Part shown: positions 3,902-42,886 of the stretch, piece by piece | Layout: the number at the start of each line of letters is the position of its first letter | How positions within the stretch are numbered: position 1 is the first letter of the stretch | Origin: a virus | Virus record (IMG/VR): IMGVR_UViG_3300021959_000062 | Location: 1-52,356 of that record | Strand: one strand, 5' to 3' | DNA: 52,356 bases | Made by a program: the position numbers and the translations under genes | The notes under the pieces: model-generated | What the model was told of the DNA's origin: nothing | The model's input: the letters and a program-made list of their open reading frames with translations, nothing else | Databases searched by the model: none

Positions 3902-3910
3902 CAAAAGAAA

Positions 3911-3920
3911 TTATATTTAT
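3911..3920 (-). promoter_or_regulatory. Candidate phage late promoter motif ATAAATATAA
   Basis: The minus-strand 10-mer ATAAATATAA (preceded by G) lies in the short gap between the 295-aa gene and the tape-measure gene. The identical 10-mer occurs in the gap after the capsid terminator at 41269-41278. Its core NATAAATA resembles late promoters reported for T4-like and cyanophage systems. If used here, it would place the hairpin at 3863-3901 in the 5' leader of the tape-measure transcript. This is inferred from motif and location only. Confidence 0.35.
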
Positions 3921-3933
3921 CAAAGAAAGAGTA

Positions 3934-8985: not shown

Positions 8986-9488
8986 ATACTAATAATATAA
9001 CTATTGGAGCCTAAGCCCACAGGAGTAGGTTCTCCAGCCAAACTATATCTATAATTATCGTAAGCAGATATACTGGTATCCATTATCATCTCTTTACAGT
9101 TACTAATTTTAGGCAGTGTGTCTATCTTAGATATGCTCTGAGCCATACCATCCGAAACCCTAGCTGATTTAGAATCCCAATTTAACCAATATTTGCTATC
9201 AAAAATAACAGCTAAATATATAGTTTCATCTGTGCTTGTTTCTATAAAACCAAAACCATTACAAACAGGACACATACTTTCTCTAGGAAAATTAATAGTC
9301 GGACTAGTTTTAGGTCTATTAGCAGATCTTTGTGTAATAGGATCGAACTCACAATTATAGCACAAATCCCTTTTACTATTCTCATATTTAAGAGTGCAAG
9401 GAACACTTAAGCCCTTCTGATCAATTAAGGTGTCTATTGAATCTGTAAAAAGTTTTTTAAATTCTGAACTAAGTAAGTTATCAAACAT
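8970..9488 (-). CDS. Possible neck/head-closure protein with a four-cysteine metal site
   Basis: This 172-aa protein has two CxxC pairs, CYNC near residue 43 and CPVC near residue 78, the second followed by NGFGF. Together they resemble a zinc ribbon. The rest (DETIYLAVIFDSKYWLNWD...) looks beta-rich. A GAGG Shine-Dalgarno supports the ATG at 9488. The position just before the 218- and 327-aa genes suggests a neck component, where small zinc-stabilised connectors occur in some phages. Metal binding is inferred from cysteine spacing only. Confidence 0.7.
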   Translation of the reverse strand: MFDNLLSSEFKKLFTDSIDTLIDQKGLSVPCTLKYENSKRDLCYNCEFDPITQRSANRPKTSPTINFPRESMCPVCNGFGFIETSTDETIYLAVIFDSKYWLNWDSKSARVSDGMAQSISKIDTLPKISNCKEMIMDTSISAYDNYRYSLAGEPTPVGLGSNSYIISMWQKS

Positions 9489-16900: not shown

Positions 16901-17033
16901 GATCGTAGCTATATCCTCCAAATGCATATTTTTCATATTCTACTGGAACTTGTGGTTGAAAACTCCAGTAATTTCTATCTAGTTGTTTTGTGATCGTACA
17001 ACGGTCAAAACCGTCGAAGAATAAAATGGCCAT
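13956..17033 (-). CDS. Large structural/fibre protein with LamG-like domain
   Basis: This 1025-aa protein starts at 17033 with CAGGAG upstream. The N-terminus (MAILFFDGFDRCTITKQLDRNYWS) is followed by a tyrosine/asparagine-rich stretch. Residues about 588-700 look like a concanavalin-A/LamG fold (FVIESWVYFTGSEPIDLYS ... EQWHHVVFVQDY ... FLNGVRNSKYVLSS). Another beta-rich section near 100-310 (FLNFRIHGIETKD ... RWCHFTFGIIQTG ... VKLDNIDLL) may be a second such fold. LamG folds commonly bind glycans, so a carbohydrate-binding fibre is likely. It is in the same operon as the 562-aa LamG protein upstream and coupled by ATGA to the 1482-aa adhesin downstream. Confidence 0.85.
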   Translation of the reverse strand: MAILFFDGFDRCTITKQLDRNYWSFQPQVPVEYEKYAFGGYSYDHTQNDYNNNNNYYAYSPNNGHLPTSKYVGATTIGGAATTYPAFGTPFGFLALNNLDISDSSLLAPLTYLQVSGFSLPQSGESFLNFRIHGIETKDSNYHSSDEAGRFGAKHPLVAFCSGNTTGLIFNIVKVTGNQLETVENTKMTIGLEVEQLAGVSGSFDLNIANDLADYNIRSLYSRGSASYHSGTAQAADLSDLGGRILMPVADRNTTSPYIPQSRWCHFTFGIIQTGVTPEIKVKLDNIDLLTIPTDDTITDKDLWDDKISISGFNYDNIRFFNRTYNASIPIAYTTYYSYGGNTTYSNHMEDVESNYYERGANTLLDDIILNDGSGTANTFLGKTAKIIPFTPGVRGQYTADVTDGGVVPDPYREWTTNTTSHRAALKNLDGDTGKISSATAGQMTAIPFGSGNIEGIQATDNWRREIQDAVGGMKIYTAAKKEFLDSSFVPVIKTGELDKFFANKTSILIRPSGGLIDALKKETISFSPVESIPALTPISKFGSGVDMHGSHFVVPFIESQDELFNGSAYDNSHLYQNSYNLVDDNRFVIESWVYFTGSEPIDLYSTFPPTGYEYGVPTRTQNINISCDPEGITYSMSNSGDTLTYVHTQNVKLLFNETAATEQWHHVVFVQDYVGAGESTDSAWPIYSFLNGVRNSKYVLSSSTRNWDTSLFPSFNFRYDIFPTSRTSGILGGDLYPSGDFNIDKNMLLNLSSPSGALVGSGTLNNPATGVITLGSSTSSFSEDLISFTVDDTGFLVLNMDAVLVNNYHTFEIYRNNIKQFTIGGSSEMIPVLGNQQSSSTTRESYQNKWAQIYVNSGDNIGIRRNPNTYTALSTVNIKQLYVASPTGIGPFYHYQQGGLKYDSFGRYSNRYVTDGGNFNNSKILPTFIGGNNIMGQYRLTQGSAQVQDGVTRTRYRDGFDIPTTGFFIDKESYIDLSENIDLTKTRYGKTREFFVFNNPETDQPWTTGLIADPSGLILGVRKT

Positions 17034-17064: not shown

Positions 17065-18753
17065 TTATGGAATAAATTCATCCGAAACAGTTGCTAAAGT
17101 AGCTGCGACAGCATATCCTCCACATCCATTGCAGTCTGCGGGGTTCTCATATTTTTCTGGAACAAAATTAGTCTTTGCAAATCGAGCACTATCACTGATC
17201 ATAATATCGTCAATATATCCAATGTATTGAGTACCAGCTTGTATTGCTCCTCTGCCAATACCAAATGTGTCTGAAATATCATATGTTACACCTTGATTAC
17301 CACCAATGATAAGATTGCCAGCACCTGTAATAGCAATATTTTTATCAAATTCTTTTTTATCTTTTAGCTCCCCATTAATATATAGTCTAGCAATATTATT
17401 AAATCTACTAATTGCAATATTTGTATATTCACCAGTAGGTAAAACTCCCGTATAATTTAAGTTTAATGTGCCATAATTATATATAGGTTCACCATATTCT
17501 CCTGTTTCATCAGTCAACTCACTAACAACTGCTCGGAAAGTTAAAACAGTACTAGTTCTAAATAATCTCCAATAATTAGAATTGTCATCATTTTCTCCAG
17601 ACTCATCAGCATGTTGAGTATAAGCAGAAATCAGCGTATCACTGCGACTAGAACTACTAGGTCTAGCCCACATCTCTATAGTAAAATCTCCTCGTAAAGA
17701 CCAATCATCTGCTGTAGTAATAAAATTATCATTCACTCTTAGATGTGGATATGTTCCAGGATTAGGGAAAGAGTCATATACTCCATTAAAGTATAAGCCA
17801 CCAGGACCAAATTTAGACTGCGTACTAACTTCAACAGCAGCAAGTTGATTTATAGTTTTTTCTCTACAAGAGTAATCAAGCAAGGATGACTCGACATCTG
17901 TTATACTATTAGGCTGCATAAACAATTTAATATCACAGTATTTATGCCTCGGGCCAATAGGAGTAAGAATGCCTGTAGTAGAAAATTCTCCAGTGCCTAC
18001 TGCATTAACAGCAGCAATTCTAAATATATGTGGTTGATCATTAACTAAATCTTGTACTAAAATACTATTTAAATTACCTATTCCACTAGATTGTTCAGTA
18101 ATGAACAGCTGTGTATTTACCTGTAATCTGTCTTTATTTTCTATCAAGACCTTTCTGCGATCATATTCTTGGAATGTGCAGTTAGTTCGATAATTATCTG
18201 AAATTAGATTATCGCTAACGGTACCATCAAACATTAAATTATAATCATCCTCGGTAATTACTTGATTATCAGATTCAGTAAAACAAAGACCAAAGCTTAC
18301 AGCTGTAAGATTATTATTATCTTCAGTCAAAATATCACTTAAAAAACAATCTGTATATTGTAATATATATTCTGTAATAGGTGATCTATTATCGTATGGT
18401 ATACTCCAGGAGAATTCTATTTCACTGTCTCCAATAATATTACTTAAAAAGCTTGTTAGGAGTGGAGGCTCTGGTGGAGGGTCATAAGTACAAATATCTA
18501 TTGCTTCATATGTGAGATTTATTCCATCTAATAATTTAGGCAAAGACAGAGCATCAGCAGCTAAATAAGTTAGAGAAGACAATGATTTAGGAGTGTCAAA
18601 GTCTGCAATATCTGCCGCATAATATGTAAGCGAAGATATAGCTTTTGGATCGAGAAAGCTAAATATGTCAGCAACTAAATAATCTACACTAACTTGTTTG
18701 ACATCATCTTCATCATAAACTGTATTGACGCCAAAAAATGGTGGTAATATCAT
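17065..18753 (-). CDS. FN3 + LamG-like fibre protein with interrupted FN3 domain
   Basis: The 562-aa product begins with three or four degenerate repeats (YLVADIFSFLDPKAISSLTY, YYAADIADFDTPKSLSSLTY, YLAADALSLPKLLDGINLTY; about residues 25-90). An FN3 domain follows, starting near 97 (SEIEFSWSIPYDNRSPITEY). It appears interrupted by about 85 residues carrying LTEDNNN and ITEDDYN, and resumes near 228 (VNDQPHIFRIAAVNAVGTG). Residues about 275-545 form a LamG-like domain (GDFTIEMWARPS ... YTNIAISRFNNIARLYINGE ... YIGYIDDIMIS). Near the C-terminus is CNGCGG, and the protein ends EFIP. The start has AGGAT nine bases upstream. A virion adhesin is likely. Confidence 0.85.
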   Translation of the reverse strand: MILPPFFGVNTVYDEDDVKQVSVDYLVADIFSFLDPKAISSLTYYAADIADFDTPKSLSSLTYLAADALSLPKLLDGINLTYEAIDICTYDPPPEPPLLTSFLSNIIGDSEIEFSWSIPYDNRSPITEYILQYTDCFLSDILTEDNNNLTAVSFGLCFTESDNQVITEDDYNLMFDGTVSDNLISDNYRTNCTFQEYDRRKVLIENKDRLQVNTQLFITEQSSGIGNLNSILVQDLVNDQPHIFRIAAVNAVGTGEFSTTGILTPIGPRHKYCDIKLFMQPNSITDVESSLLDYSCREKTINQLAAVEVSTQSKFGPGGLYFNGVYDSFPNPGTYPHLRVNDNFITTADDWSLRGDFTIEMWARPSSSSRSDTLISAYTQHADESGENDDNSNYWRLFRTSTVLTFRAVVSELTDETGEYGEPIYNYGTLNLNYTGVLPTGEYTNIAISRFNNIARLYINGELKDKKEFDKNIAITGAGNLIIGGNQGVTYDISDTFGIGRGAIQAGTQYIGYIDDIMISDSARFAKTNFVPEKYENPADCNGCGGYAVAATLATVSDEFIP

Positions 18754-18764
18754 AATCTTTTATC

Positions 18765-19901
18765 CTATGGTCCAGAGTTGGCATCTGTGGTATCTCCAGA
18801 CAGTATAACAAGAGAAGGCGACTCGGTAATCTTAACAAGAGTAGCTATAGAATATTGACCAACTAATTTTGTGTGATTATATCTATTTTGTATAGAACCA
18901 CTCATACGAACCTGTCCACTTCCTAATTGCACAATTAAACAATTAAAACCTGCATTTATCGTGCTGTCCATTGATACAGACACGGAGTCAAGATCATAAT
19001 CAAATGTGATAGTCTTACCATTATCTGATTGCACTATTTGATATGTCTGTGATGTTTGACTATTGATAGATGCTGAAAATCTATTAATAGCCCCGTCACC
19101 AAATGATTGTTCTCCAACAAAAGCATTACCTCTACGAGTACTTGCATACTCACCAGAATTATATGTAGAGATAGTACCTAGTCCTAATGTAGTTCTTTGT
19201 TCTGCTGCACTAACATCATTTAAAAATTCTTTAGTAGTATTGGATAAAGTAATTAATTCAAAATCACTATCATCATTTGTATAAAGCAATTGTCCAGATG
19301 TCGTGGTTAAGTTTGCAATATCTTGTAGATTACTATTAAATGCTTGTACATCTGAACCAATAGTCAATCCTGTTACCGCAATCGTCAAAGTATTATCGTC
19401 AGGATCTTGATAAGACAAACTAATATTATTACCTTCTATTAATAATCCTGCTACTTCATCATCTACAGCTTCATTGAAATTAGTAATATCTGAAGACATA
19501 TGTTGATGTCCTACTAGAGTATTAGTAATAGTAATAGAATTGTTAGAATCACTAACAGATAAAGCCGTACCTGCTCCAGCTAGAAAATTTACAGTGGAAT
19601 TAGAGTCATCTACCAAGAAAGTGTCTGTATTATCACCAAAAGTTATAGAACTAACACCGGAGCCAGTTAAACCTCTAACTCCTGATGGTCCAATATCTCC
19701 TTGAGGGCCGGTCGGTCCTTGTGGTCCGGTTGGGCCTGGTAATCCTGAACCAGGAGGACCTTCTGGCCCTTGAACACCTACTGCTATAGAAAGTTCAGCA
19801 GCAGCTGCAGGAGATGAAATAATATTTACAGTGTCACCAGTTCCTTGAGAAACAGAAACTGCTTGTGCTGGAGATGTTGGTTTAATATGTAAGGTTGCCA
19901 T
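18765..19901 (-). CDS. Collagen-like tail/head fibre protein
   Basis: This 378-aa protein has a short N-terminal beta segment (MATLHIKPTSPAQAVSVSQG), then Gly-X-Y collagen-like repeats at about residues 45-82, rich in PTGPQG. A beta-rich shaft follows (SNSTVNFLAGAGTALSVSDS ... VGHQHMSSDITNF). The C-terminal domain is TYQIVQSDNGKTITFDYDLD ... GFNCLIVQLGSGQVRMSG, a type frequent in marine phage fibres. Collagen stubs in phage proteins form trimers. The start lies 10 bases after the giant gene's stop and has no visible Shine-Dalgarno, so re-initiation after the giant gene is possible. It ends in SGP. Confidence 0.85.
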   Translation of the reverse strand: MATLHIKPTSPAQAVSVSQGTGDTVNIISSPAAAAELSIAVGVQGPEGPPGSGLPGPTGPQGPTGPQGDIGPSGVRGLTGSGVSSITFGDNTDTFLVDDSNSTVNFLAGAGTALSVSDSNNSITITNTLVGHQHMSSDITNFNEAVDDEVAGLLIEGNNISLSYQDPDDNTLTIAVTGLTIGSDVQAFNSNLQDIANLTTTSGQLLYTNDDSDFELITLSNTTKEFLNDVSAAEQRTTLGLGTISTYNSGEYASTRRGNAFVGEQSFGDGAINRFSASINSQTSQTYQIVQSDNGKTITFDYDLDSVSVSMDSTINAGFNCLIVQLGSGQVRMSGSIQNRYNHTKLVGQYSIATLVKITESPSLVILSGDTTDANSGP

Positions 19902-19911: not shown

Positions 19912-22900
19912 CTAGTAGGTATAAGTATATTCGTCGGTACCTGTTTCATCTGAAATCTTAATCTTAATCTGACTATATGTACTCCAATCAATTCCGTATT
20001 GAGGATCTAAATTAAAACTAATATTAAGTCTATCATTAACACTGTCGTATTCATCTATAAGAATATCTGGATTAATACTATTTCTTAAAAATCCACAATA
20101 ACTGTAATCATTAGTCCCAGCAGCTAGTTGAACATCTGGAGCATAATTAGCAATAGGTCTTTTGCCTCCTAAAGTACTAAATGTCAATGTATTACCTGTC
20201 TTGTTTACTGTTCCAGTAACAATACTTATAGGCTTATTGACATACAATGGATAATTTTGGAAATGTTTTTTGTAAGTAATTCCAACATGAGGATACGTAG
20301 CATTATCAAAAATAGGTTGACCAGAATTTTCTGCAGTGCATATCTTATAAACTAAATCTTCATTTTCTCTCACATTTGATCGACCTGTAATTTGAAAACC
20401 ATACTTACCTTCAGTAATGAATGTAGTATTATATGGCATAATTTTAATATTATCATTTATATTTAAATAAACGTCTACAAAATCTCCAGAGGCAAAACTA
20501 TCTGTCCAATCGCTTTCTTGATTACTATTTTCTAGTAAGAAATGAGTTGTCGAACCCGAAGCCACACTAATAACTCCTGCGTTATCTAAAGATGCTAGTT
20601 CTGTAGATACATAACTATTCTTATCTATACCTGCTAAATCACCACTTTGTATAGATAAATTATTGTGTCTAACAAGAATACCAGTAGTTGTTACTTCTTC
20701 TACTACACTCTTGAATGTGATATCACTTGTCAAATTATTTCTGGTAGTAGTACCTAAGTCTTTGGTATAAATTAAGCGACTAGAACTATTAAGATTACTA
20801 CTACCTACAACCAACTGGTGACTATCAAATAGATCTGAACCATTAAACAACTTAATAGATACGACATTGTCTTCTATAACTCCAGTTGTTTGAATTACAA
20901 TTTGATTAGTATCTCCTGCATAACTAGCGTTTACATTATTAATTGGAGAAGTCATTAAAGATTTTTGAATAACTCCAGATATCTTTGGTAAAAAGTCTTC
21001 CGTACTCCAAGTACCAGAAACACTAACTGTTCCAGAATGGTTGTAAGGTATTGCCTGTCCTATTCCAGCATCATCTGGAATATATCCACCGTAAGCTATA
21101 CCTATGATGGGATCCATTACTACTCCATTAGGATCTAAATCAGTTAAGCTATTAGTCACAGAAATACTATCAAAGCCAGCTGTGGTTATTGGAGGAAAAC
21201 TATTTTGTGTAGGTATTGTAGTTAAATTATCACCCTTGTGAACCCATATATATTCATTGTTGTCATCAGGCAATGCAGAGTGATCGTAGGTTGGAAAGTC
21301 ATCAGACTCATGTTCTATGAAAAGTTTGTAAATGGCACCAGAAGATGTTGTCAATGTTTCTGTGTCAAAACTATTACCACCACCAACACTTCCGCTTTGA
21401 ATAATAGTATTAGATGTTAAATTAGTTAAGCTATATTTTAAAGTACCGTTTCGTTCATTGTCCGGTATTAGTCTTTGTACCTCGTTATCACCAAAAGCTA
21501 ATCTTGTAGCAAGAGCGAACCTCGCACCATTAAACGAAAAGAAATAATCTTGTGCCGGAGGAGGGTCAACAATTTCTGCATGAATAGGCGGAACTATAAT
21601 TCCACTAATATATAAATTCCCTGTTTGCCAGCAATCAGACCAAGATGCTTTAGAAATGATATCTGTCTCACTATTTACTCTATCAAATTTTAAACCGCTG
21701 TATCGTATATTATTATTGGCAAAAGGAATTGTTCCTGTTATACTGGTCTTGAAACTAGGTACTAAAATTCCTCTAAGACCAAGTTCTGTACTACTTCCTC
21801 CATTAGATGTTAATTTTGTTCCAACTTTACCACCCCCAATTAAACATGTGCTTACATTACTAACAAGATTCCCCTCAAAGAAATCATTAAAATTAGATAA
21901 GTTAATATTTTTATGCTCACCCTTAATAACTTGGGCTGTTCCTGTAGTTTGTATTGTTAAGCTAAGACCAGCATCTATATATTTGCCTGTATCATTACTT
22001 TGAACTACATAAAATCCGTTTAGGTCATCATTATTTACGTCTGGTATTTTTAGATATATCTCATCATCAACAGACAAATCGTTAGCACTGTCATCATCTG
22101 CTGGTTCTATAATATAAACTTTTGTGTCTGCGCTTAAAGTACCAGAATACACAACATCTAAAACACCACATCTATTATGAGGTAATATACTATTGCAAAC
22201 AATTGTTTGCTCTATAGGTGGAGGTCTCCAATTGCTAGAAGATCCTTTAACTAAACCGCTTCCTCCTTCAGGAGATAGAATAGCATCTTCTGTTTTGAAG
22301 TAAACTGCTATTCCTACGTCGGGGTCATTTGGCACAGAGGTATCAACAAAAGTAAATGTTCGTTGAGCCTCTAAGCCTCTAGCGTCTTCGATTTTTAGTG
22401 TCAGTTCTTCAGAATAAGCTCCTCCGTTAGCAAATTCTGTTGGAACACCCTGTATTAATATATGTCCACTACCTATATTAGAATAAGGCTCTCTTGGAAA
22501 ATTTGTTTCTTCTGGAAAGTATATACTATAACTCAACCCAGATGGCAATGAACCACTTACAGAATAATTTCTAATTCCTGTAGGACCAATACAAAGAGGT
22601 GGAACTGTAGGTCCAAAATCATATTGTTTTTTGTATAAAACATTACCACAGAATGGTTTCATTACACCCATATTTTCATATAAAATACTGTTTACAATTT
22701 GTGGAGGGGTGCCAGTAAAGTTTCCTTCTATATAGTTATATCTATGATCAACACTATCTGTATCTGGCAAATATGGACTAGCAGGCAATAATCCTGTATT
22801 AGTATCTACGGCAAAGATATTTATATCTTTCAATCCTACTAAAGTACAAGAAGGCAATCCAGAGAAGTGATAACTCCATGATCCTCCTCTGTCATTTGGA

Positions 22901-25900
22901 TTCCATAAAGGAGGGGTAATAAGACATTGCATTTGAGTATCAATCAATGGATCAAAACCTGAACAAGCTGTTGGCATATCAGTTAATCTAATAGTAGGAG
23001 GATAATTAGCGTGAGCTAAACCACCTATAGTCTTAAATTGTAACTCCCATGCTTCCTCTCCTTGTCTTACCTCCTGTCCTGAACCATTAGGACCAGTATA
23101 TCCAACTATGCCGGTAATAGTCAAAGGTAATCCTTGCAGTTCATTGCTTTCTATTTCTATAGTATCAAACTTCGCAACTGCTATAATTTTATCTTTACCT
23201 ATGCCTTTACATTCAATAGCTAATTGACTACCGTTAGTATTTAATCTAACATCAAATTTATCTGTCATTTTGTTACCAATATAGGAATTTTGCCATAATT
23301 TTAAATCTCTATCATATTTTCTAACAGGGCTACTTAAGGAAATACTACCTTCTTTCAGACTGCTAGGAAAACTTATATCATTACTAGATTGCTCATTTAA
23401 ATCAATACTATCTACTTTAGTGAAAAATTCATTATTGGGAGTACCATAAACATCAGCAGAAATATTCTTCATTATCTTTTTGTCATTGTATTGTATAACA
23501 TAAGAATCGTTAGAGGTACTACTGGTTAAATCATCTTCTATATAAATATCAATTGGATATAATCCAGTATTATCGACATAATTTCCAAACATATCTTTAC
23601 TAGAAATAATTTGCACTTTCCATTTTCTTAATGTACTATCATATTCATAAGTTGTATCATACTCTATAGGATTACCTTGGTACAAACCTATATTTGGAGT
23701 ATTGAAAACTCTTGCATTTGGTCTGTTAACGGCATCATGCTCAGTAACTCCACTAGCAATATAAAAATCCATTGTCCAAGGATTATCTACTGTGAAGGGT
23801 ATTACACCTGGATTAATGATCTTTTCGAATTGAACAGGTTTGTAGAAAACGAGATTAAAACCAAAACTGTCTGTGTAAGTTTGGTAACTATGGGCACCAT
23901 ACTCGTCATAAACAGCTTGCTTTATAGAAATAGATACCGATTGATTAACGAACTTAGCAGAATTTTCGTAATAGTTGGTGTTTCCAGTATTCTGAGGAGT
24001 AGCTATAATCTCAAATCTTTTTGTGTTACTATTATATAAAGAAGAAGAGAGTATTAAATTATAATCACTATTAGTATTAAAAGTAATATTAAGATTATTA
24101 GTTACTTCCGTGGATACAGGACCTAATAAAGCAGGAATCTGAAACTTAATCTTGTCTTCATCTTCTATATTTAAATAATAAGTAGTTGATAAATTATTTA
24201 ATTGTAAATCATAAGTCGGCCTATCAGAAAGGTGAGGCACCACAACTATTGCTCCTGTGCCGGAAGCTAAGGTAGTATAAGGACTAGTAGTGATGTCTTT
24301 CAAAACTAATTGAGGATTAAAAGTTCCTGTAGTAGAACCCCCTCCACCAGAATAAACAACTGAATTAGCATCTGTATTCTTAATATTTACTTGACTAGGC
24401 TCTGGTGTGTCAGTAATATCAAAAGCAATTCTACCTTGAGTAAAGAGAGTATTTACATCTATATTTGATATATCAAAAGTCAACTCCCAATTATTAGTAC
24501 CAGCAACAACATAACCAGTATAGGCAGGACTGATTTCTGGAACTAAGTACTTAGAAATATTCAAAAGTTTATCTGTTGAACCAGTAAAATCTGATACTCG
24601 TATAGTCATATCTCTATTGCTAAAGTTTTCGGCAGGAGGTTGCCACTCAACGCCAATCGTCCAGCCATTGCCATGCCATCCATAATGCGCTGGTTCTTCC
24701 AATTCTGTTTTATAATAACCAATGCCTGACAATGCAACTCTAGGAGTAGAAAAAGTATCAGAATTAAATAAGTTTTGATCTCCTTGTAAAGTAATAATTT
24801 TAAATTTAACTTCTGTAATATTGCTGGGCACTGTTAACGATGTTCCAGTAAGTGTTGTAAAAACAGGATCTATTGCATCGAATGAGTATTGTATTCCTGA
24901 TATCTCAATTTTATTAGGATTTAACGATAAAAATTTAGTATCCGTATCATTTAATTCTATATCATATCCACTATAAGCTATTTGATCATTCTTCAAATGT
25001 ATAGTATGCTTCCATCTTTTAGAATCTCTGTCATAATAGTTAAATATTTTTTTGTCTTGCTGGTTAAGGTCTGACAATGAACCCTGAGATACGATAAAAT
25101 CATTATCTAGGTTAGGGTTAAGATTTGCTTTGATATTTTGATCACTATCAATAATATAAACTAAGCCTGATTTACCAACGTGGTTAGAATTGTAAGGAAC
25201 ATTAATAGATATAATATTTGGTTCGATCAGATCTTCTATGTAATAATCATCACTAATAGCAGCGAAGTCATCCTTAAAATCAAAATACATTTTCTTATTA
25301 ACACCAAATGGTCTGATACGACCTTTAACTCCATTAACGTCAATATTATTAGGCAGCTCTCCAAAAGTTCTTCTGTCTCGTATATCTGGTATGCCACTAA
25401 ATGCACTAATGTTATATGCTGAAATTCTAACGCACAAAGTTCCTGATTCACAAAGCTTGTCATTGTGCGAGACGGTATAGATACCTGTTTGTGGAGTACT
25501 TACAAGCTTACCATTAATATCTAATGGATAATTAGAAGTGGTGCCACCGTAAGTGTGGTAATGGATATTGTTATAATCATATAGATTAAACTGTCCGGAT
25601 GTCGATTTAATTAAACTTATATCTCCTCTATTATTCAGCAGCTCGTTGTGCGAAAAGCCAAGATTAAGATTAAATCTTTGAGCATTTTGGAACATTAAAG
25701 CATGTGGTACACCCGATGTTTTAGGAGGTATTGATCTGCTCCCTTGAATAGAAATACCACTAATTACAGAATTTTCATTAGTAGGATTAAACTTATGAAC
25801 AAATTTTGTAACACCTGTACTGCTAATCGCTGTGTCGTTCCATGATAATATTTCTAGTTCATCATCTTTAGATAGATATGTCTTACCACTATCAAACTGA

Positions 25901-28900
25901 TTAATCTTCAGTATATTTCCATTAAACCATAATTGTTTGTTTTTATCGTATGTAACACCACAATATTTATTGTTAGTTCTAATAATAGGCAAGACATGAT
26001 AATCGTGTTTTGCTAATGTAGAATATCCTGGATTTCTTTCTGGAATGTACTGAGGTAAATTCGTGGTACAGTCTATGCAATCGTTAGCGTCTAGAGTAGG
26101 TACTGGGGTATAAATTAAATCTGGTGGATTAGGATTAATGTAAGGTAAGTAATCTGTGCCAGTATTTAATATAGTTTCACTTTCTAAAATATATGGCTTA
26201 ATATTTACTGGGTTATCAACATTTGTTGTAAAGTTAAAATTAGCAGTTGTATTATTCTCAGTATTATCAATTTCAATACGTATAATATCAAAACGCTTAA
26301 GATTAGATATATTTACATTAATGTCCTGTATCCATTCACTATATCTAGGAGCTTGAGGTTCTGATACGATAAATCTATCTGTTATGTCAATTGCATTACT
26401 GCTAAAAGTATGAGTTGAGCTAGTAATCAAAGGATTTTGGGAGTCTGTCGTAGTTTTATATTGCACATGAGATTGACCTCTGTGTGTACTGAGAGCACCA
26501 CCAAAATTCATGTATCCAGCGTCCCATGTTTGTTGACCATCACCAACATAATATGTCCAACCATATCCGAAAGCACTTCCTGGACCACCAGCAATTGTTT
26601 CAATTCTTATTCCAGTAATATTTGCTGGAGTATTAAAATATGATGTTCGACCATTACTATGAAAATCTGTATCTACATAGATCTGATCATGGGGTACAGT
26701 GTAGTCTGAACGCTGATAAGCAACACTTGAAGAAAATGATGGAGGAGCTAGTCCACCGAGTTGATTTCTGTAATTTTGTGTTTGTGTCTCTAAAGTAATT
26801 TTATAAATTTTTAATTTGGGAGCAACACGATCAGTTGATCCTGAAGATAGATATCTGCCAGCAATTGTTAAATCATTAATGTTTTGACCGAGATACAAAA
26901 ATTCTAAATATTTAACACCACTAGTCTTATTTTCAAAATTATAACTATAAGGATTACTACTAGAACCAACACCTGTAAGATCTGATGGTTGTAAATTGGT
27001 TGTGCTGTCACTATCTGTTAAATAGTACTCTGAAAATCCTATATCGCTAGATGTAGTTTGTCTAAGCAGTCTAGTTCCACTATAAAAGAAATTGCTGCCT
27101 GTTGCAAAAACAGAGGATTTACCGATATGTTCATCTAGTATTAAAGTACTAATATTTGTAGATAAAACATTATTATTTTTAGGTATAACACCAGTAAAAC
27201 TAAAACCTGATACAAATGAGCTCATCTCGTAACCATTAATAAGACTACCAGAATGATTTAATAATAATCCAGACTGCAGTCGGTTGGGAAGATTATAGTC
27301 TATGAAGCAAGTACCATTTATGTCAAATTCAACATTGTCCAACATGCCCGTTATACGAACTTGTTCGAGTCCTGCATTTGGATCGACACTGGTAGAAGTC
27401 TCTAATAGAACTGAGTCTTTATTTGGTTCTAGATCTGTTAAGCTTGATGAAGTAAGGAAATTTTCTTTAGTAACTAAAGAGTGAAGGACATTATCACTGT
27501 AATTATAACCTTCAGGGAAAGTAATAATAAGCTCATCATACTCTTTCACTGTTCCAGATGGTAATATGAATGAAATTATCTTACTACTAATATCATATTC
27601 AAATGCTACAAAGTTTTTATTCAATATATTAGTATCATTATATCTAACATCATATATTCTGCTATCATTATGAAAGAAAGATCCACTAAATGCTATACCA
27701 TTTGTTATGTACTTGCCTTTAAGAGCTTGATCAAAATAATCTTGTCTGTTATCTTCTTTTAATAAATAATTTGCATCATCTCTGACAGTAATTTTATTAC
27801 CATTTATACTATCAATATCAAATACATAGTCTTTAGGTCGGTTTCCACTAACTGTAGTGACACCACTTAATGTAGTAATAGAGTTGGTAAATTCTATAGG
27901 CAGTCTATTAATTATAGTACTAGCTTCTTCTATATAATTATGTTTTTTATCAAAATTAGCCGTAAATGTACCATTCCCATTAATTCCAGAGTCTGGTAAG
28001 TAAAAATAGTTTTTTAGTTTAATAGAATCTGCATCAACAATTTCAATATCAGAATATTGCGTAGCTATTGGTAAATCAAGTGAATTATTATTAGACGCCA
28101 CTGTATGAAGATTCACGCTATTACTATATCTACTATCTAAATTTATATCTCTTAAAGTATTAATAGTGATTTCACCTGTACCAGCTTGTGTATAAAATTC
28201 TACAACACCGGTTGCATATTCTGCGTTATAATTATTTTCTTGAGAAGCAAATCCTTTTATTGCTGCGATACCTACATCGATAGGACAATCACCAGATTGA
28301 ATAGTATGAGTATATGTTTTTAATCCACTAATTCTATAGTTACTAGCTTGTGGAATAGTTTGATTATATCTAATAGTCTTAGTTGAATTACTTCCACTAT
28401 ATGTCTTATTAGTTTTAACAAAAAACTTATCATTTGTAAATGTAAATGGTATTAGTTTACCCCAATTGTAATAATAATTAAAGACACTATCGGACATATC
28501 TACAGCGTCAGGATAAGTAAGTACGATATCTCCTTTTCTGGATCCTGGGAATGATAAGCATGCGTCTCCTGATTTAGCAGCAATAGCGTAATCGTGAACT
28601 AAGAAATCACCATTTTCTTGCATTATATTATCAAATGTATTAAATTTAAGTTTACCGTTATCTTTGGTAACATGATAGCTTTGAAAAATTTCGTAAGTAT
28701 CATTTAATTCAATTCTAGTACCATGATGATTTTCATTATTTGACACAATATCATCTGAGTCTTCACTAGTAATCAAATTATTGTCTTCAGACAGCAATGT
28801 ACATAAGTCGCCAGAACCTATGCCATAGAGAGCTAGAACAGGATTTTGTACAGTATTTCTAAAATTAAATCTGTCACTACCATATTTGATATTTGATCGT

Positions 28901-31900
28901 TTAAGACCAGATTGAGGTGAAGGGTTGAAATTATCTAAATTGCCAGTTGTGTCAATTATAATAGAATAATCTCTTGATCTGCTAGTAAAAGACAATAAGT
29001 CATGAACTAACAAATTAGCATCCGGATATCCTGGATATCCACTAGCCCAAAAAATATTTTCGGTTAATTTACCCAAGCTTAATGTAAATAAAGGTTCTTC
29101 TGTTGTACTACCACTAGCTTCAGATCTAAAAAATTCATTTTCTTCTGTAAAAAGTGAAACATCTCTAATATTAGAATCTCTAGTTAAAATTTGATTACCT
29201 GCTTCAGTCAATATTTCTTCAGGAAATAATAAGTCTTTTTCTGTTGTCAAAACTTCTCTACCACCGACAAAAATTGAATAATCATTAAATGATTCAACAG
29301 TAAAAAAGCTACTTAGTTTATCAGTCGCTGAGTTAAAGATTTGCAAACCACTAAATACATGTTGACTATTATCTCTATAAGCATTTATAAGATGTAATCG
29401 ACCATCAATTAACCCTGGAGTACCAGAAATAGTAAATGGGGTGTAAGCAGCTTCTAATCTACAATCATCTGGTAAAGCACTATTTTCTAATAGCCCACTT
29501 ATAGGAATTTGAGATAAGTCTCCAGAAATTGTTGCGGTAGGGTGTTCATGAATAATAGGAGTAACTTCAAACAAGTCTTTACCATTAACTAAATTTGCTT
29601 TAAAATTATTTTGTGCTGTAGAAAATGTAAAATAAGGATCATAAGATCCTACTCCACTAATTTGACCTACAATAGTTCCACTAGGAGAATTTTCATTTAT
29701 GTTAGATGATAGTAATTGTATGTCAGTAATGTCTTTATGATTAGATCGTTCAGCATCAAAAATCTGCACTGCATTATCTGTTACAGTTAAAAAGAAATCA
29801 TTAAAGATACCACTAAAATTATTATTAGCAAACACTCTGATATTATAAATACCTAGATCATAACCAGATGGAGTGCCAGTAAAAACTCTAGTTGATGTAT
29901 TAAAAGACAACCAAGAAGGCAATGCGGAACCACTTTGTTGTATGGCATCAAATGTCAAAACACCTTCATTTTCTTCTTCGTTAAAAAGATCGGATGGTAC
30001 GGTATAAGAGAACGTTTCACTTATATCAATTGTTTGATCAGGAATAGAATAGTGCCTATATGGGGCTCTGGTGTCATTTACTGTAATTGTAAAGTTTTTT
30101 TCTTTTGATGTATTATTTAGTCTGTCCTGTGCTTTAATTCTTACAGAGTATATGTTTTTAGATTCGTAATTTAAAGGATCTTTAGCTTTCAGAAAAAATT
30201 GATCATTAATATTATCTACTTCAAAAATACTATTATCATCATCTTTATATCCTGTACATAATTCATAAGACAATGGGGTGTGAGGCAATACAATTTCGTT
30301 ATTTAATCCTGTACCATAGATATCCAAAGACATTATGCCATCATGTGTTTTACGTCGAGTATATATTCCCTTCGTCTTCTTAAATTTTGTAGAAGCTGAA
30401 TTAAAAGTACCAGATATATCATGTTTATGCGAAACAAATACAGATCCAGAATTAGAAGCAAGTGGTATTAATGTGACTTCAAGTCCAGAAGGATAAGATA
30501 ATTTTTTAGGTACTGGAATAGTATCTATAGATAATGAAGCCGATCCGTCGTAATCGTTTTCATTGTGTTTAATGCCGTTGCTAAATATTTGTACTCCTTC
30601 AGGACCAGTAGTATATATTTTTGTAGCAATATTCAACAAATCACTGACATATTCTAATCCAGCAGCTCCATCATCAACACCTACACTATCTAAGTTAATA
30701 ATTAATTTTGCATAATCTATTGTGGAACTACCCTCATAATATGACAAGAAACCAGTATACATTGGTCTCTCCACAAAGAAGGTGTTACTATCTATAACAC
30801 TATATGCTTTATATGCACGATCATCAAGACTGTAGCTACTATTGTGTTTAAAGGATAAGTCAACAAAAGAATTTGTCGTGACACCATGATTTTTAGATGT
30901 TATCTTAATACCTCTGTTTGTGTCATCAGTAAAAAATGTTCCTGAATACAAAGGTTCATGTATATCTAAAATTAAATTACCATCGTTAGTTTTCCTATAA
31001 GTACCACTTGCTGCTTTATGAATTTTAGTATATCTATAATTACTCTTTACATTTTGTGTAGTAATATCATTGTTTTGCAAAGGAGGTGCGTTTACCTTTA
31101 CATCTTGTAAAGTTCTTTGCTCATTAGTGTGGTCAAAAGTATGATAGTGATTTTTAATTTGTGAATTATTAAAAAGTTCATTTTTCTTGGGAATTTGCGG
31201 ATGAGTAGTTTTGTTGATAATCTCTACTATATTGTTAGAATTTCTAAAAGTTGCATTTTTGAAAACTCCACTTTCCAACTTAAAATGAGCAACACCTGTT
31301 CCGAACGCTTTAGTTACCAATACTTCTGCTTGATACGCTAAAGTCTTATTATTTGGAATTTGTATAGTAGGACTTAAACTAGTCCATGTGTCACCAACTT
31401 CTGTGCCTTGTAAATGCATATTAACAGAAGTATATTGTCCATGTTCTAATCTTAATCCACTCGCATCATTAACATTAAATGCTCCTACAGCAATTTGATT
31501 GGGTAAAGATGTAATACCATAATTACCCATCGATATAGAATTAAGTCCACCAGCTGTAGAATTATTTCCCAAAGCCACAGAATTATTAGTATTGACAGTA
31601 TGGCCTTGACCAACTGCTAAAGAATCATTGCTAGTAATAGTATTAGGGCCAATACTAATAGACCTATTAGCATTTAATAAATTACCAGTACCCATAGACA
31701 AATTATTAGGACTATCTACAACAATATCATTGTTAGAGTCCTGTTGTATTACAGTGCTATCTATACGTCCTGCAGGATCATTGACCGTGTCATTAAATTT
31801 AGATAAATAATTGTGAGTTCCTTGAATGTGATCAAAAGTTACATTATCATAAGAAAATGCTCCTGTCATTTGAGCAGCATCTCTGTAGTCTGTTCCATGT

Positions 31901-33591
31901 TTGCCATCTAATAGATCTGCATTTAAGCTTATGACTACATTCGTATTTCCATAAAGTTCTAAAGGTGATTCGCTTATTCCTAAATTTGGAGAGATATTAA
32001 CTTTACCCTTAACAGTAATACCATCAGCAAATGTTTTAAGTCCATTGATAGTTTCATCTGTCGTTTTCTTAACATATAAAGTATCAGCAATATTTTTTAA
32101 TAAAATTGTAGATTGATCGCCATCAAGATTTTGTAAGACAAAGACAGATTCTGCACTACCTCCATTTATATCATCTTGATAATCACTATCTCCATCACCA
32201 TCTATATCTGCACCTGAAGCAAATACATTGGTAACAAGTTTTAGCTCATCAGCTGCAGGATAATATGCAATCAAACCTGTTTTATTAGAAAATGCTCCAC
32301 CGTAAACAAAACTAACACCTCTCGGTGTGTCTGGTAATAAATTAGGACTATTAGTAGCAAATAATGGCAAATTATCAAAAACAGAAAGCTGACCATTAAT
32401 CGTCACATCGTTTTGTAAAGTAGTATCACCATAAATAGTTTTTGTTCCAGTATCAGGAACAGGTGTGTATCCTAAAGAATTAACTATATCTGTTTTATCT
32501 GCATACAATACAGTGGTAACTAATCCGTTAGAATCAACGCCTACTTTTGTGTATTGTCCAGGAACTACGGCTGATGGCAGAACCGAAGTATTTATCGTTC
32601 CTGTCAAATTAGAAGCATCACTATAATAAGAGCCCTCTTGATTATCTAGCCTGTCAGCATCTAAAAGAGATCCAGGTCCAGAATTACCAAGATGAAAAGG
32701 AGTATAGCCTAATATAGAGACAATATCTGATTCAGATAGGGACTCACCAGATACTACTCTACCTTTAGAGTCAGTAGTGACTTTAGAATATGTACCTGCG
32801 GTTCCTGTTACACTCAGATTTATGTTATTATCTTCTACAAGAATATCTGATGATGATGGTATATTAATAACTACAGAACCATTAGGAATCTCTAAAGCAC
32901 CACCACCAACTAATCCTGAACCTGCTACAATATCTACGTTCACACCACTAAATACAAAATTACCTGTAGCAATTGGAAAAGATTTTATCTTAGAACCATC
33001 GTAGTATACTAGTTGATTTTGAGTATAGAAATTATTATTAGTACCACCTTTACTAATGGGTACTTGTCCGTCAATTGCTCCCAGGTCTAACTCTGCAACT
33101 CTAGCTATTGTACTATCAATCTTAATTTCATTTGAATTACTAATTTCAAGTCCTTCACCCAACTCAACATTAACAGTAACGTTATTTGTTCCATCTGTTT
33201 TAGATAATCCAGAACCAACTAAAACTCCTGTAACAGCATTAGATGCAACTGTTGCATCATTTATAATATCTTGAATAGAGTGACTTGAAGAAGATAATTT
33301 TTGACCATCAAAGAATATAATATTTCCACTAGAATATGTTGTATTATTTGTTCCACCACTAGATATAGACAGTACTTCAAACTGATTAGCATTCTGGCCT
33401 GCAGCACCCTGATCGCCAGCCTCTCCCTTAATTCCTTGAGGCCCTTGAGATATGTTAACTACTTTTATTTGATTGGTATTTTCATCAGAAATAACAACAC
33501 GAGAAGTGATTATTGTATCATTTTCATCTTGTCTAGAAATTATCAAATATTGATTAGTTTGAAATTGTTGATCTACTGTAACTTTTGTCAT
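19912..33591 (-). CDS. Giant virion adhesin/fibre protein, about 4559 aa
   Basis: A single uninterrupted frame of about 13.7 kb. I prefer the ATG at 33589-33591 (MTKVTVDQQ), which overlaps the upstream stop as ATGA; an ATG two codons earlier is possible. Numbering from the preferred start: collagen-like stub about 50-66; repeated 'GGTNN...YYDG' blocks; a YadA-head-like run about 640-705 (SISIGPNTITSNDSLAVGQG, then NSVALGNNST, NSISMGNYG, NQIAVGAF). A domain near 740-790 (IPNNKTLAYQAEVLVTKAFG) is related to one in the 1505-aa fibre. CADG/He_PIG-like domains lie about 1174-1275 (LPSWLSFNTSTRVFTGTPSG) and 3660-3752 (LPSGLSYSIYF ... ILIQGVP). The rest is beta-rich S/T/N-dominated repeats. It is probably a long trimeric or extended fibre; attachment site on the virion is unknown. 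Its calculated mass would be near 500 kDa. Confidence 0.9.
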   Translation of the reverse strand: MTKVTVDQQFQTNQYLIISRQDENDTIITSRVVISDENTNQIKVVNISQGPQGIKGEAGDQGAAGQNANQFEVLSISSGGTNNTTYSSGNIIFFDGQKLSSSSHSIQDIINDATVASNAVTGVLVGSGLSKTDGTNNVTVNVELGEGLEISNSNEIKIDSTIARVAELDLGAIDGQVPISKGGTNNNFYTQNQLVYYDGSKIKSFPIATGNFVFSGVNVDIVAGSGLVGGGALEIPNGSVVINIPSSSDILVEDNNINLSVTGTAGTYSKVTTDSKGRVVSGESLSESDIVSILGYTPFHLGNSGPGSLLDADRLDNQEGSYYSDASNLTGTINTSVLPSAVVPGQYTKVGVDSNGLVTTVLYADKTDIVNSLGYTPVPDTGTKTIYGDTTLQNDVTINGQLSVFDNLPLFATNSPNLLPDTPRGVSFVYGGAFSNKTGLIAYYPAADELKLVTNVFASGADIDGDGDSDYQDDINGGSAESVFVLQNLDGDQSTILLKNIADTLYVKKTTDETINGLKTFADGITVKGKVNISPNLGISESPLELYGNTNVVISLNADLLDGKHGTDYRDAAQMTGAFSYDNVTFDHIQGTHNYLSKFNDTVNDPAGRIDSTVIQQDSNNDIVVDSPNNLSMGTGNLLNANRSISIGPNTITSNDSLAVGQGHTVNTNNSVALGNNSTAGGLNSISMGNYGITSLPNQIAVGAFNVNDASGLRLEHGQYTSVNMHLQGTEVGDTWTSLSPTIQIPNNKTLAYQAEVLVTKAFGTGVAHFKLESGVFKNATFRNSNNIVEIINKTTHPQIPKKNELFNNSQIKNHYHTFDHTNEQRTLQDVKVNAPPLQNNDITTQNVKSNYRYTKIHKAASGTYRKTNDGNLILDIHEPLYSGTFFTDDTNRGIKITSKNHGVTTNSFVDLSFKHNSSYSLDDRAYKAYSVIDSNTFFVERPMYTGFLSYYEGSSTIDYAKLIINLDSVGVDDGAAGLEYVSDLLNIATKIYTTGPEGVQIFSNGIKHNENDYDGSASLSIDTIPVPKKLSYPSGLEVTLIPLASNSGSVFVSHKHDISGTFNSASTKFKKTKGIYTRRKTHDGIMSLDIYGTGLNNEIVLPHTPLSYELCTGYKDDDNSIFEVDNINDQFFLKAKDPLNYESKNIYSVRIKAQDRLNNTSKEKNFTITVNDTRAPYRHYSIPDQTIDISETFSYTVPSDLFNEEENEGVLTFDAIQQSGSALPSWLSFNTSTRVFTGTPSGYDLGIYNIRVFANNNFSGIFNDFFLTVTDNAVQIFDAERSNHKDITDIQLLSSNINENSPSGTIVGQISGVGSYDPYFTFSTAQNNFKANLVNGKDLFEVTPIIHEHPTATISGDLSQIPISGLLENSALPDDCRLEAAYTPFTISGTPGLIDGRLHLINAYRDNSQHVFSGLQIFNSATDKLSSFFTVESFNDYSIFVGGREVLTTEKDLLFPEEILTEAGNQILTRDSNIRDVSLFTEENEFFRSEASGSTTEEPLFTLSLGKLTENIFWASGYPGYPDANLLVHDLLSFTSRSRDYSIIIDTTGNLDNFNPSPQSGLKRSNIKYGSDRFNFRNTVQNPVLALYGIGSGDLCTLLSEDNNLITSEDSDDIVSNNENHHGTRIELNDTYEIFQSYHVTKDNGKLKFNTFDNIMQENGDFLVHDYAIAAKSGDACLSFPGSRKGDIVLTYPDAVDMSDSVFNYYYNWGKLIPFTFTNDKFFVKTNKTYSGSNSTKTIRYNQTIPQASNYRISGLKTYTHTIQSGDCPIDVGIAAIKGFASQENNYNAEYATGVVEFYTQAGTGEITINTLRDINLDSRYSNSVNLHTVASNNNSLDLPIATQYSDIEIVDADSIKLKNYFYLPDSGINGNGTFTANFDKKHNYIEEASTIINRLPIEFTNSITTLSGVTTVSGNRPKDYVFDIDSINGNKITVRDDANYLLKEDNRQDYFDQALKGKYITNGIAFSGSFFHNDSRIYDVRYNDTNILNKNFVAFEYDISSKIISFILPSGTVKEYDELIITFPEGYNYSDNVLHSLVTKENFLTSSSLTDLEPNKDSVLLETSTSVDPNAGLEQVRITGMLDNVEFDINGTCFIDYNLPNRLQSGLLLNHSGSLINGYEMSSFVSGFSFTGVIPKNNNVLSTNISTLILDEHIGKSSVFATGSNFFYSGTRLLRQTTSSDIGFSEYYLTDSDSTTNLQPSDLTGVGSSSNPYSYNFENKTSGVKYLEFLYLGQNINDLTIAGRYLSSGSTDRVAPKLKIYKITLETQTQNYRNQLGGLAPPSFSSSVAYQRSDYTVPHDQIYVDTDFHSNGRTSYFNTPANITGIRIETIAGGPGSAFGYGWTYYVGDGQQTWDAGYMNFGGALSTHRGQSHVQYKTTTDSQNPLITSSTHTFSSNAIDITDRFIVSEPQAPRYSEWIQDINVNISNLKRFDIIRIEIDNTENNTTANFNFTTNVDNPVNIKPYILESETILNTGTDYLPYINPNPPDLIYTPVPTLDANDCIDCTTNLPQYIPERNPGYSTLAKHDYHVLPIIRTNNKYCGVTYDKNKQLWFNGNILKINQFDSGKTYLSKDDELEILSWNDTAISSTGVTKFVHKFNPTNENSVISGISIQGSRSIPPKTSGVPHALMFQNAQRFNLNLGFSHNELLNNRGDISLIKSTSGQFNLYDYNNIHYHTYGGTTSNYPLDINGKLVSTPQTGIYTVSHNDKLCESGTLCVRISAYNISAFSGIPDIRDRRTFGELPNNIDVNGVKGRIRPFGVNKKMYFDFKDDFAAISDDYYIEDLIEPNIISINVPYNSNHVGKSGLVYIIDSDQNIKANLNPNLDNDFIVSQGSLSDLNQQDKKIFNYYDRDSKRWKHTIHLKNDQIAYSGYDIELNDTDTKFLSLNPNKIEISGIQYSFDAIDPVFTTLTGTSLTVPSNITEVKFKIITLQGDQNLFNSDTFSTPRVALSGIGYYKTELEEPAHYGWHGNGWTIGVEWQPPAENFSNRDMTIRVSDFTGSTDKLLNISKYLVPEISPAYTGYVVAGTNNWELTFDISNIDVNTLFTQGRIAFDITDTPEPSQVNIKNTDANSVVYSGGGGSTTGTFNPQLVLKDITTSPYTTLASGTGAIVVVPHLSDRPTYDLQLNNLSTTYYLNIEDEDKIKFQIPALLGPVSTEVTNNLNITFNTNSDYNLILSSSLYNSNTKRFEIIATPQNTGNTNYYENSAKFVNQSVSISIKQAVYDEYGAHSYQTYTDSFGFNLVFYKPVQFEKIINPGVIPFTVDNPWTMDFYIASGVTEHDAVNRPNARVFNTPNIGLYQGNPIEYDTTYEYDSTLRKWKVQIISSKDMFGNYVDNTGLYPIDIYIEDDLTSSTSNDSYVIQYNDKKIMKNISADVYGTPNNEFFTKVDSIDLNEQSSNDISFPSSLKEGSISLSSPVRKYDRDLKLWQNSYIGNKMTDKFDVRLNTNGSQLAIECKGIGKDKIIAVAKFDTIEIESNELQGLPLTITGIVGYTGPNGSGQEVRQGEEAWELQFKTIGGLAHANYPPTIRLTDMPTACSGFDPLIDTQMQCLITPPLWNPNDRGGSWSYHFSGLPSCTLVGLKDINIFAVDTNTGLLPASPYLPDTDSVDHRYNYIEGNFTGTPPQIVNSILYENMGVMKPFCGNVLYKKQYDFGPTVPPLCIGPTGIRNYSVSGSLPSGLSYSIYFPEETNFPREPYSNIGSGHILIQGVPTEFANGGAYSEELTLKIEDARGLEAQRTFTFVDTSVPNDPDVGIAVYFKTEDAILSPEGGSGLVKGSSSNWRPPPIEQTIVCNSILPHNRCGVLDVVYSGTLSADTKVYIIEPADDDSANDLSVDDEIYLKIPDVNNDDLNGFYVVQSNDTGKYIDAGLSLTIQTTGTAQVIKGEHKNINLSNFNDFFEGNLVSNVSTCLIGGGKVGTKLTSNGGSSTELGLRGILVPSFKTSITGTIPFANNNIRYSGLKFDRVNSETDIISKASWSDCWQTGNLYISGIIVPPIHAEIVDPPPAQDYFFSFNGARFALATRLAFGDNEVQRLIPDNERNGTLKYSLTNLTSNTIIQSGSVGGGNSFDTETLTTSSGAIYKLFIEHESDDFPTYDHSALPDDNNEYIWVHKGDNLTTIPTQNSFPPITTAGFDSISVTNSLTDLDPNGVVMDPIIGIAYGGYIPDDAGIGQAIPYNHSGTVSVSGTWSTEDFLPKISGVIQKSLMTSPINNVNASYAGDTNQIVIQTTGVIEDNVVSIKLFNGSDLFDSHQLVVGSSNLNSSSRLIYTKDLGTTTRNNLTSDITFKSVVEEVTTTGILVRHNNLSIQSGDLAGIDKNSYVSTELASLDNAGVISVASGSTTHFLLENSNQESDWTDSFASGDFVDVYLNINDNIKIMPYNTTFITEGKYGFQITGRSNVRENEDLVYKICTAENSGQPIFDNATYPHVGITYKKHFQNYPLYVNKPISIVTGTVNKTGNTLTFSTLGGKRPIANYAPDVQLAAGTNDYSYCGFLRNSINPDILIDEYDSVNDRLNISFNLDPQYGIDWSTYSQIKIKISDETGTDEYTYTY

Positions 33592-34019
33592 GTGCAAGTT
33601 CCGCAGTTGTCCTGAACGTCAAATGTTCCAGAAAATGCGTTTGTATCTGGAACATTCCTAGATTGAACAGTAACCGTACCTCCTAAAATTCTAAAGACTT
33701 TTTTGCCACCACCACTATATAAATCATTAGGTTCTTGTAGTTCTAAGTCATAAGCTGCACTTGTAAACGTATAAGCCGCTGTTTGTGAAGCTGGTATCTT
33801 AAGACTTAATTTACCTTCTGCTGGAACTAACACAAATTCATAAGTAGAATTTCTAGTGTCTGTGATAAAAGTAGAAATATTACTTTCGTTATCTTTCCAT
33901 CTAAGTCTAGCGACCCAGTTAGTTAAATCAATAATATTTTCATTATTGTCTTTATACTCAAAACTAATAACAAAAGCAGTACCTTTTTCTATAGTAAAAT
34001 TATAACTTGCTGCTGGCAT
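33588..34019 (-). CDS. BppU-N-like fibre-anchor protein, copy 2
   Basis: The 143-aa protein begins MPAASYNFTIEKGTAFVISF and continues DLTNWVARLRWKDNES ... AAYDLELQEPNDLYSGGGK ... ILGGTVTVQS. This is the layout of the N-terminal domain of upper-baseplate proteins (BppU_N) and of many small phage proteins next to fibres. It is clearly paralogous to the 133-aa protein at 40849-41250. The C-terminus has DNCGTCT. It has a GAGGAT Shine-Dalgarno, and its stop overlaps the start of the giant gene. It may be a stand-alone anchor or adaptor for the fibre encoded after it. Confidence 0.75.
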   Translation of the reverse strand: MPAASYNFTIEKGTAFVISFEYKDNNENIIDLTNWVARLRWKDNESNISTFITDTRNSTYEFVLVPAEGKLSLKIPASQTAAYTFTSAAYDLELQEPNDLYSGGGKKVFRILGGTVTVQSRNVPDTNAFSGTFDVQDNCGTCT

Positions 34020-34043: not shown

Positions 34044-34565
34044 TTAAGAATAAAAATCTCTAGATCTGTCTGAACTATCTTGTAAATATCTAGGATCAAA
34101 TTTGTTACCAACAAAAGGACTGAGAATAGCATGAAGGGCCTGTACATTACCAATCTGATGATCTTCTAATAACTTCTTATACATCGCGCAAGGACCCTGG
34201 TTTAAAATTACCTCATAACCTCTCAACCCTCCACCCACAGCAAGCTGTGCGGGTCCCAGGGCAGCTTTAATACCTTCTGTGGCAGCCTTGGTTCTGAGAG
34301 AACTTTGATCTAGAATACAAGCAGCCTTTAGAGAAGTTAGACTAATAAAATCTAAATCTTTATCTTCTGCAAGTACAGGGTCAGGAGTGATGTCAGGATT
34401 GACAATATTAATTGTATAATCTACTGTTAAGTCTACTTCTTTTATTACATATTGAGCTGCTACAACAATTAGCTGTTGAACTCTCTCATCGCTATAAGTA
34501 GGTGTGTCTGAAAGATCATTAATCCACGACCTCACAATTAGAGGTATTTCTACATTCCATGACAT
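34044..34565 (-). CDS. Probable head-tail connector (gp6-like)
   Basis: This 173-aa helical protein begins MSWNVEIPLIVRSWINDLSD and continues YSDERVQQLIVVAAQYVIKE ... FISLTSLKAACIL. The pattern resembles the small helical connectors that dock under the portal (HK97 gp6-like family). Residues 90-130 contain ALGPAQLAVGGGLRGYE. It is isolated between fibre genes rather than next to the other neck genes. A structured intergenic region lies upstream, and no strong Shine-Dalgarno is visible. The family call is based on pattern memory and length. Confidence 0.6.
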   Translation of the reverse strand: MSWNVEIPLIVRSWINDLSDTPTYSDERVQQLIVVAAQYVIKEVDLTVDYTINIVNPDITPDPVLAEDKDLDFISLTSLKAACILDQSSLRTKAATEGIKAALGPAQLAVGGGLRGYEVILNQGPCAMYKKLLEDHQIGNVQALHAILSPFVGNKFDPRYLQDSSDRSRDFYS

Positions 34566-42873: not shown

Positions 42874-42886
42874 GTTTAATTCTCCC

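Follow-up and report, generated by a model that had tools for sequence, protein, structure and literature searches.

Giant phage proteins are already known, as are neck fibres with carbohydrate-binding tips. In lactococcal siphophages, the neck passage structure (NPS) is a collar or fibre appendage near the neck that carries carbohydrate-binding modules at its end (PMC6669499). Proteins of up to 7,694 aa occur in huge phages (PMC7162821), and in the cultured jumbo phage pEt-SU of Edwardsiella the pETSU_133 coding sequence spans 5,119 aa, next to a neighbour, pETSU_132, of 3,124 aa. Head-fibre-like appendages are also cited for the Tenacibaculum jumbo phages PTm1 and PTm5 in PMC13282480. Long tail fibres of the T4 and cyanophage type, trimeric autotransporter adhesins of the YadA family, and adhesin chains of Ig-like domains (contactin, cadherin and titin; He_PIG and CADG in bacteria) offer further points of comparison.

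We analysed a giant gene in a 52,356-base IMG/VR record (IMGVR_UViG_3300021959_000062), referred to here as the window. The open frame covers 19912-33597 on the minus strand, with an ATG at 33591 and a TAG stop at 19912, so that the gene (19912..33591) encodes 4559 aa without internal stops. The product has a molecular weight of 501 kDa and a pI of 4.7. A sequence-only reading of this DNA had described one uninterrupted 13.7-kb frame in a phage late operon, encoding an S/T/N-rich, beta-dominated protein with little recognisable family. Its coordinates and length were correct, with the strand left unstated; the composition (S 9.7%, T 8.9%, N 9.3%), the beta-rich and mostly family-less character, and the operon setting, with capsid, packaging and tape-measure genes, were borne out as well. 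Its view that such lengths are rare outside jumbo or specialised phages needs qualification, given the pEt-SU and huge-phage proteins and a lineage that is itself jumbo-size. The window is a fragment of that lineage, and we treat it as a jumbo-size case because giant-bearing records of the lineage reach 200-230 kb. These are uncultivated, widespread, aquatic, jumbo-size phages of bacteria.

Homologues were sought through the terminase (46758-48791, minus strand, named by tblastn to annotated terminases), which has hundreds of relatives in IMG/VR on contigs of up to 230 kb. The stretch downstream of the terminase was fetched from about 20 of these contigs and compared for a giant at the same place; G001, G002/G003, G004 and G021 had a homologue there, and others did not. 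Patterns made from the single giant sequence were too specific (0 matches in viral contigs), but family alignments then worked, and scans with N-terminal and C-terminal alignments yielded further giant-bearing records. In total, 31 records besides the window carry homologues, which collapse to about 20 distinct phages because several are identical pairs; the giant proteins are identical in G002/G003, G026/G035 and G027/G036. The homologous frames occupy the same genomic slot as the giant and encode approximately 3,400-4,720 aa without internal stops, a few contigs cutting the gene. Beyond stretches of about 45-50 aa, no relatives were found in 50,697 phage records, and a pattern scan of 84,980 prokaryote species genomes found none.

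For the pair G030/G031, which is 81% identical, dN/dS was 0.11-0.33 in every 400-codon window, indicating purifying selection over the whole length of the giant. These data bear on whether the frame arose by chance or through an assembly join. Local errors do happen in such records, as a short tandem duplication in G004 (L159:786-870) breaks the N-terminus and start of its giant gene. That break is local, since in G045, a similar record, the match to the N-terminus starts at residue 1, and nothing of the kind was seen in the window. Because some 20 independent homologues, full-length and stop-free and several of them identical between two records, coincide with low dN/dS throughout, an artefact is excluded, and we consider this explanation refuted.

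The giant begins with a conserved N-terminal segment, a probable virion anchor (residues 1-49; 33445..33591, this and all following protein features on the minus strand). Behind it lies a collagen-like stub of six GXX triplets (residues 50-67; 33391..33444), in which G50, 53, 56, 59, 62 and 65 are all invariant in 12 homologues. Residues 68-900 are the best conserved part, with 36-65% identity in distant relatives, and give short tblastn matches to annotated phage fibre and virion structural proteins. Within this part, residues 68-629 (31705..33390) match PHROG tail fibres and carry GYTP/LDADLLDG repeats, with copies at 301-345 and 547-591 (hhalign prob 96). Repeats of this type are shared with T4/cyanophage-type long tail fibres, which have no counterpart for the giant beyond its first 900 residues. 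A YadA-head-like beta-roll, a fold that is normally trimeric, follows at residues ~630-710 (31462..31704). Against PDB, the family profile here matched 1p9h (E 4e-5), 3s6l, 2yo0, 3wp8 and other trimeric-adhesin heads, and Pfam YadA_head was above cut-off in homologue G026 but sub-threshold in the window protein (E 0.094). In contrast to YadA family adhesins, the giant has no YadA membrane anchor, and its single roll is internal in a phage fibre.

Beyond the fibre part, residues 1108-1271 (29779..30270) comprise a cadherin-like stretch followed by a He_PIG/CADG domain, with dystroglycan among the PDB profile matches. Only one He_PIG domain is firm in Pfam (residues 1181-1271; E 1e-11, 45.5 bits against a gathering score of 24), and it recurred in all four homologues tested. 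The cadherin match at 1108-1171 (E 1e-5) fell just under the Pfam cut-off, and a He_PIG-like stretch near 3685-3738 was weak (hhalign prob 33). By windowed conservation, residues 1401-2600 (25792..29391) are the most variable, and large segments between ~1400 and 2600 are absent or replaced in many homologues.

AF2 models covered residues 2900-3640 and 3630-4559. The first region (22672..24894) is modelled as an Ig-like bead chain of tandem beta-sandwich domains (pLDDT 71), with Foldseek matches to contactin, cadherin and titin Ig chains at E values down to 2e-12 and, in hhalign self-comparison, an internal repeat at 2928-3047, 3249-3401 and 3486-3600. The second, a C-terminal beta-rich region (19915..22704), gave a weaker model (pLDDT 66) with multi-Ig Foldseek matches. 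Cysteines C3648, C3667, C3799, C3808 and C3987 are invariant in the alignment and could form disulphides in the C-terminal half, and the last ~90 residues (4468-4558) may be another repeat copy (hhalign prob 57). By windowed conservation and dN/dS, the last 2,000 residues are conserved and subject to purifying selection. Tandem beads and one He_PIG domain recall adhesin Ig-like chains; the similarity is of fold only, at about 10% sequence identity, and we do not claim common descent. Among the best fold matches were also pieces of a long pEt-SU protein, A0A4D6DWM9, which is divided into four or more such pieces. Judging by its length, this entry is presumably pETSU_133. No sequence match was found between the window giant and pEt-SU proteins. 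Pfam searches of the giant and the homologues tested found no protease or auto-cleavage domain, neither Pfam nor PDB gave a match there to a catalytic polysaccharide-degrading (depolymerase tailspike) domain, and no C-terminal chaperone was found in the window giant.

These searches refine several features proposed from the sequence alone. The collagen stub is real but sits behind 49 residues rather than at the very start, and the YadA-head-like run gains support from the family profile and G026 rather than from the window protein itself. Of the two or more CADG/He_PIG-like domains suggested, one is solid. Only in about the first 900 residues are fibre features clear. Profile search and structure prediction, proposed as checks, recovered the YadA head, one He_PIG domain and the Ig-like beads, the last of which had been missed, and left most of the length without a sequence family. 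Also missing from the earlier account was that the giant is conserved as part of a cassette, which occupies a swap site flanked by neck-type genes.

All large genes of the window lie on the minus strand in late-operon order, and several of their names rest on position. From high to low coordinates, the order is capsid, fibre genes, neck-type genes, the giant, four fibre genes, neck-type genes, a tube-like gene and a tape-measure-like gene. After the terminase come a large protein in portal position (44539-46704), a scaffold/protease-like protein (42887-44527), a decoration-like protein (42391-42915) and the major capsid protein (41356-42369), whose label is backed by 21% identity to the major head protein of phage G. 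Fibre genes follow the capsid gene at 39500-40606 and 34956-39473, and the tube-like (6216-7310) and tape-measure-like (2-3850, running off the record) genes close the operon.

Several side observations were made on these genes. Bacillus phage G is the only cultured relative of the capsid protein (E 5e-5), and the terminase is similar to terminases of Slash-like and SPbeta-like phages. The 34956-39473 product, a fibre of 1505 aa, strongly matches PHROG tail fibres and contains many internal repeats that are nearly identical (ANVTSAGALMDSE / GDKTKLDGIEASADVTD units). Mtd_N-type N-terminal segments, as in the BPP-1 tropism determinant, are common to 39500-40606, 34956-39473 and a part of 9511-14016 (by Pfam for the last and blast links among the others), and Mtd_N occurs three to four times per large relative. 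Between packaging genes lies a GDP-mannose 4,6-dehydratase-like gene (49496-50476), named from reading of the sequence and shared with the close relatives G020 and G021. The joined ends of G013 (L089 + L090; 159,659 bases) show two diverged copies of the capsid/portal module, and this is probably a chimeric record or two phages.

The giant heads a cassette with three to four further fibre or lectin genes, placed between conserved neck-type genes. On the left, the cassette is bordered by a 173-aa conserved protein in a putative head-tail adaptor position (34044..34565, minus strand), syntenic in all complete intervals examined and with 0 matches in Pfam, PHROG and PDB. On the right lies a syntenic 172-aa conserved protein with invariant cysteines in its alignment, in a putative neck or stopper position (8970..9488, minus strand). 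Searches of the neck-type proteins against PDB gave nothing useful and no relative, and it is gene order that underlies the adaptor and stopper labels. Directly after the giant, in every homologue checked, comes a 378-aa collagen-containing fibre protein (18765..19901, minus strand), whose homologue holds this place in 11 of 11 giant-bearing records (two of them identical). It is followed, on the same strand, by three proteins placed by synteny: one with fn3 and Laminin_G_3, a ConA-like lectin domain (17065..18753; Pfam), a 1025-aa protein without a Pfam family (13956..17033), and one with fn3, Mtd_N, YHYH and a weak cadherin-like match (9511..14016; Pfam). These further cassette genes occur in nearly all 11 records, where the fetched stretch permits a view, and records without the giant also lack the cassette. 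The giant-bearing phages fall together on one side of a branch of the portal tree (support 50/83), and the distribution of the cassette needs one change, a number as low in none of 500 shuffles. This pattern is compatible with a single gain of the cassette.

Immediately upstream of the giant, with a start/stop overlap, is a small fibre-associated protein of the phrog_1084 type (33588..34019, minus strand; 143 aa), a probable adaptor. In 9 of 12 homologues, the overlap of its stop with the giant's start reads ATGA, which suggests translational coupling of the two. Relatives of this protein include gp29 of Streptomyces phage Faust, encoded between major capsid and head-to-tail adaptor genes; PHM1_091 of Prochlorococcus phage P-HM1, annotated as fibre assembly and adjoining a YadA-domain gene; and gp186 of Acidovorax phage ACP17, noted as 'long tail fiber'. 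Several phages without the giant have a longer version of the small protein with a P-domain (Pfam PF01483) at its end; others have a short version followed by nothing. The slot between the neck-type genes is a swap site that holds nothing, a P-domain or the giant cassette. A second copy of the small protein (40849-41250) comes after the capsid gene, at the head of a further variable fibre set.

With its lectin-type domains and, by gene order, its neck slot, the cassette resembles the lactococcal NPS. The NPS, however, is one protein of approximately 500-900 residues with a BppU-like N-terminus fused to the fibre, whereas the window has separate genes for the adaptor candidate and a giant that is 5-9 times longer. 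The NPS gene of TP901-1 also lies late, after the baseplate gene, and the window giant lies between neck-type genes. Homology to the NPS is weak: an hhalign comparison of the small protein with TP901-1 NPS gave prob 29 (E 6e-4), and with the BppU gene product prob 0.1. A BppU/NPS identity was first assumed for the small protein and was not confirmed by these comparisons.

Pfam searches of five large records detected neither a tail sheath nor Baseplate_J, and the same search was positive in control genomes, which makes a long non-contractile tail likely; a siphovirus form of the lineage is only suggested by these sequence searches. In this respect it differs from pEt-SU, which is contractile-tailed, of the phiKZ type, and has its giant genes apart from the packaging operon. 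PTm1 and PTm5 are alike in being jumbo-size aquatic phages with head appendages. A link to PTm1 was considered and dropped: both Tenacibaculum phages are contractile-tailed, with an annotated sheath, and both were absent from the matches of the terminase, capsid, portal and giant searches. Capsid-like genes were found in five MAG contigs, assigned to Flavobacteriales (two), Chitinophagia, Alphaproteobacteria and SAR202. Shine-Dalgarno motifs precede 16 of 27 late genes, compared to 3.8 in shuffles. Bacteroidota generally lack such motifs, and their presence speaks against a Bacteroidota host. The Flavobacteriales/Bacteroidota assignment from MAG contigs was dropped, given these motifs and the mixed taxonomy of the five contigs.

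Collectively, these findings suggest that the giant is probably an adhesive fibre of great length borne on the virion, in a lineage that is jumbo-size and probably siphovirus-like; its position is most likely neck- or head-proximal, as the slot lies between adaptor-type and stopper-type genes. The late-operon position, the fibre, collagen and YadA-head features, the Ig-like bead model, the small-protein homologues, the P-domain and empty slot variants, the lectin and Mtd_N companions, and the portal-tree clustering all back this explanation. The C-terminus of the giant is not hypervariable, unlike many receptor-binding tips, which weighs against it, as do the weak resemblance of the small protein to the TP901-1 NPS and the lack of one to BppU, and the dependence of the neck-type labels on gene order. 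Under this explanation, the N-terminal segment and collagen stub would anchor and trimerise the giant on the virion, helped by the small coupled protein. The first ~900 residues would form a stiff trimeric fibre ending in the YadA-type roll, and the other 3,600 a chain of Ig-like and further beta domains that may reach distant glycans or proteins on the host surface. The three to four genes behind the giant would supply further parts of the same appendage, with Laminin_G_3, fn3, Mtd_N and YHYH companions binding host glycans. The main competing explanation, a conventional receptor-binding fibre at the tail tip or along the tail whose gene moved forward in the operon, is somewhat unlikely. The motifs of the first 900 residues do match annotated tail fibres, and in cyanophages the small-protein family carries the label L-shaped tail fibre assembly and lies among baseplate genes; yet conserved neck-type genes flank the cassette in each complete interval examined, and the capsid gene likewise precedes the second small-protein copy.

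The concentration of conservation in the first 900 residues and the break of variable segments at 1400-2600 could also indicate proteolytic cleavage of the giant, leaving just its N-terminal fibre, or several separate fragments, to function in the virion. We regard this as improbable, given the conserved C-terminal 2,000 residues and the negative Pfam searches for a cleavage domain. Still more improbable is an intracellular or released non-virion protein, such as a host-cell aggregation or superinfection factor; bacterial adhesins have Ig-like bead chains too, but the structural-operon position, the collagen and fibre-like N-terminus, and the coupling to a fibre-associated protein argue against it.

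Returning to the neck- or head-proximal fibre, a fuller version can be put forward only tentatively. The giant may be a modular, swappable neck/head appendage, a ~500-kDa chain with a trimeric-fibre base and an Ig-like arm; in this uncultivated, widespread, aquatic, jumbo-size lineage it would then represent a class of long-range tether that is not known from any cultured phage. An Ig domain measures ~4 nm per 100 residues, and on this estimate the extended length could be 100-200 nm; a trimer would have a mass of about 1.5 MDa. The novelty seems to lie in how the parts are joined: one chain exceeding 4,000 residues unites a trimeric-fibre base with an Ig-like arm, and in this uncultivated lineage it is conserved within a cassette at a neck-type swap site. 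These data suggest that some uncultivated aquatic phages spend 13.7 kb on one adhesive protein, and about 24 kb with its companion genes (9511-33591), and keep both under selection. As a swap site for adhesive appendages, the neck-type slot would open host binding by the neck or head, and not only by the tail tip, to direct testing.
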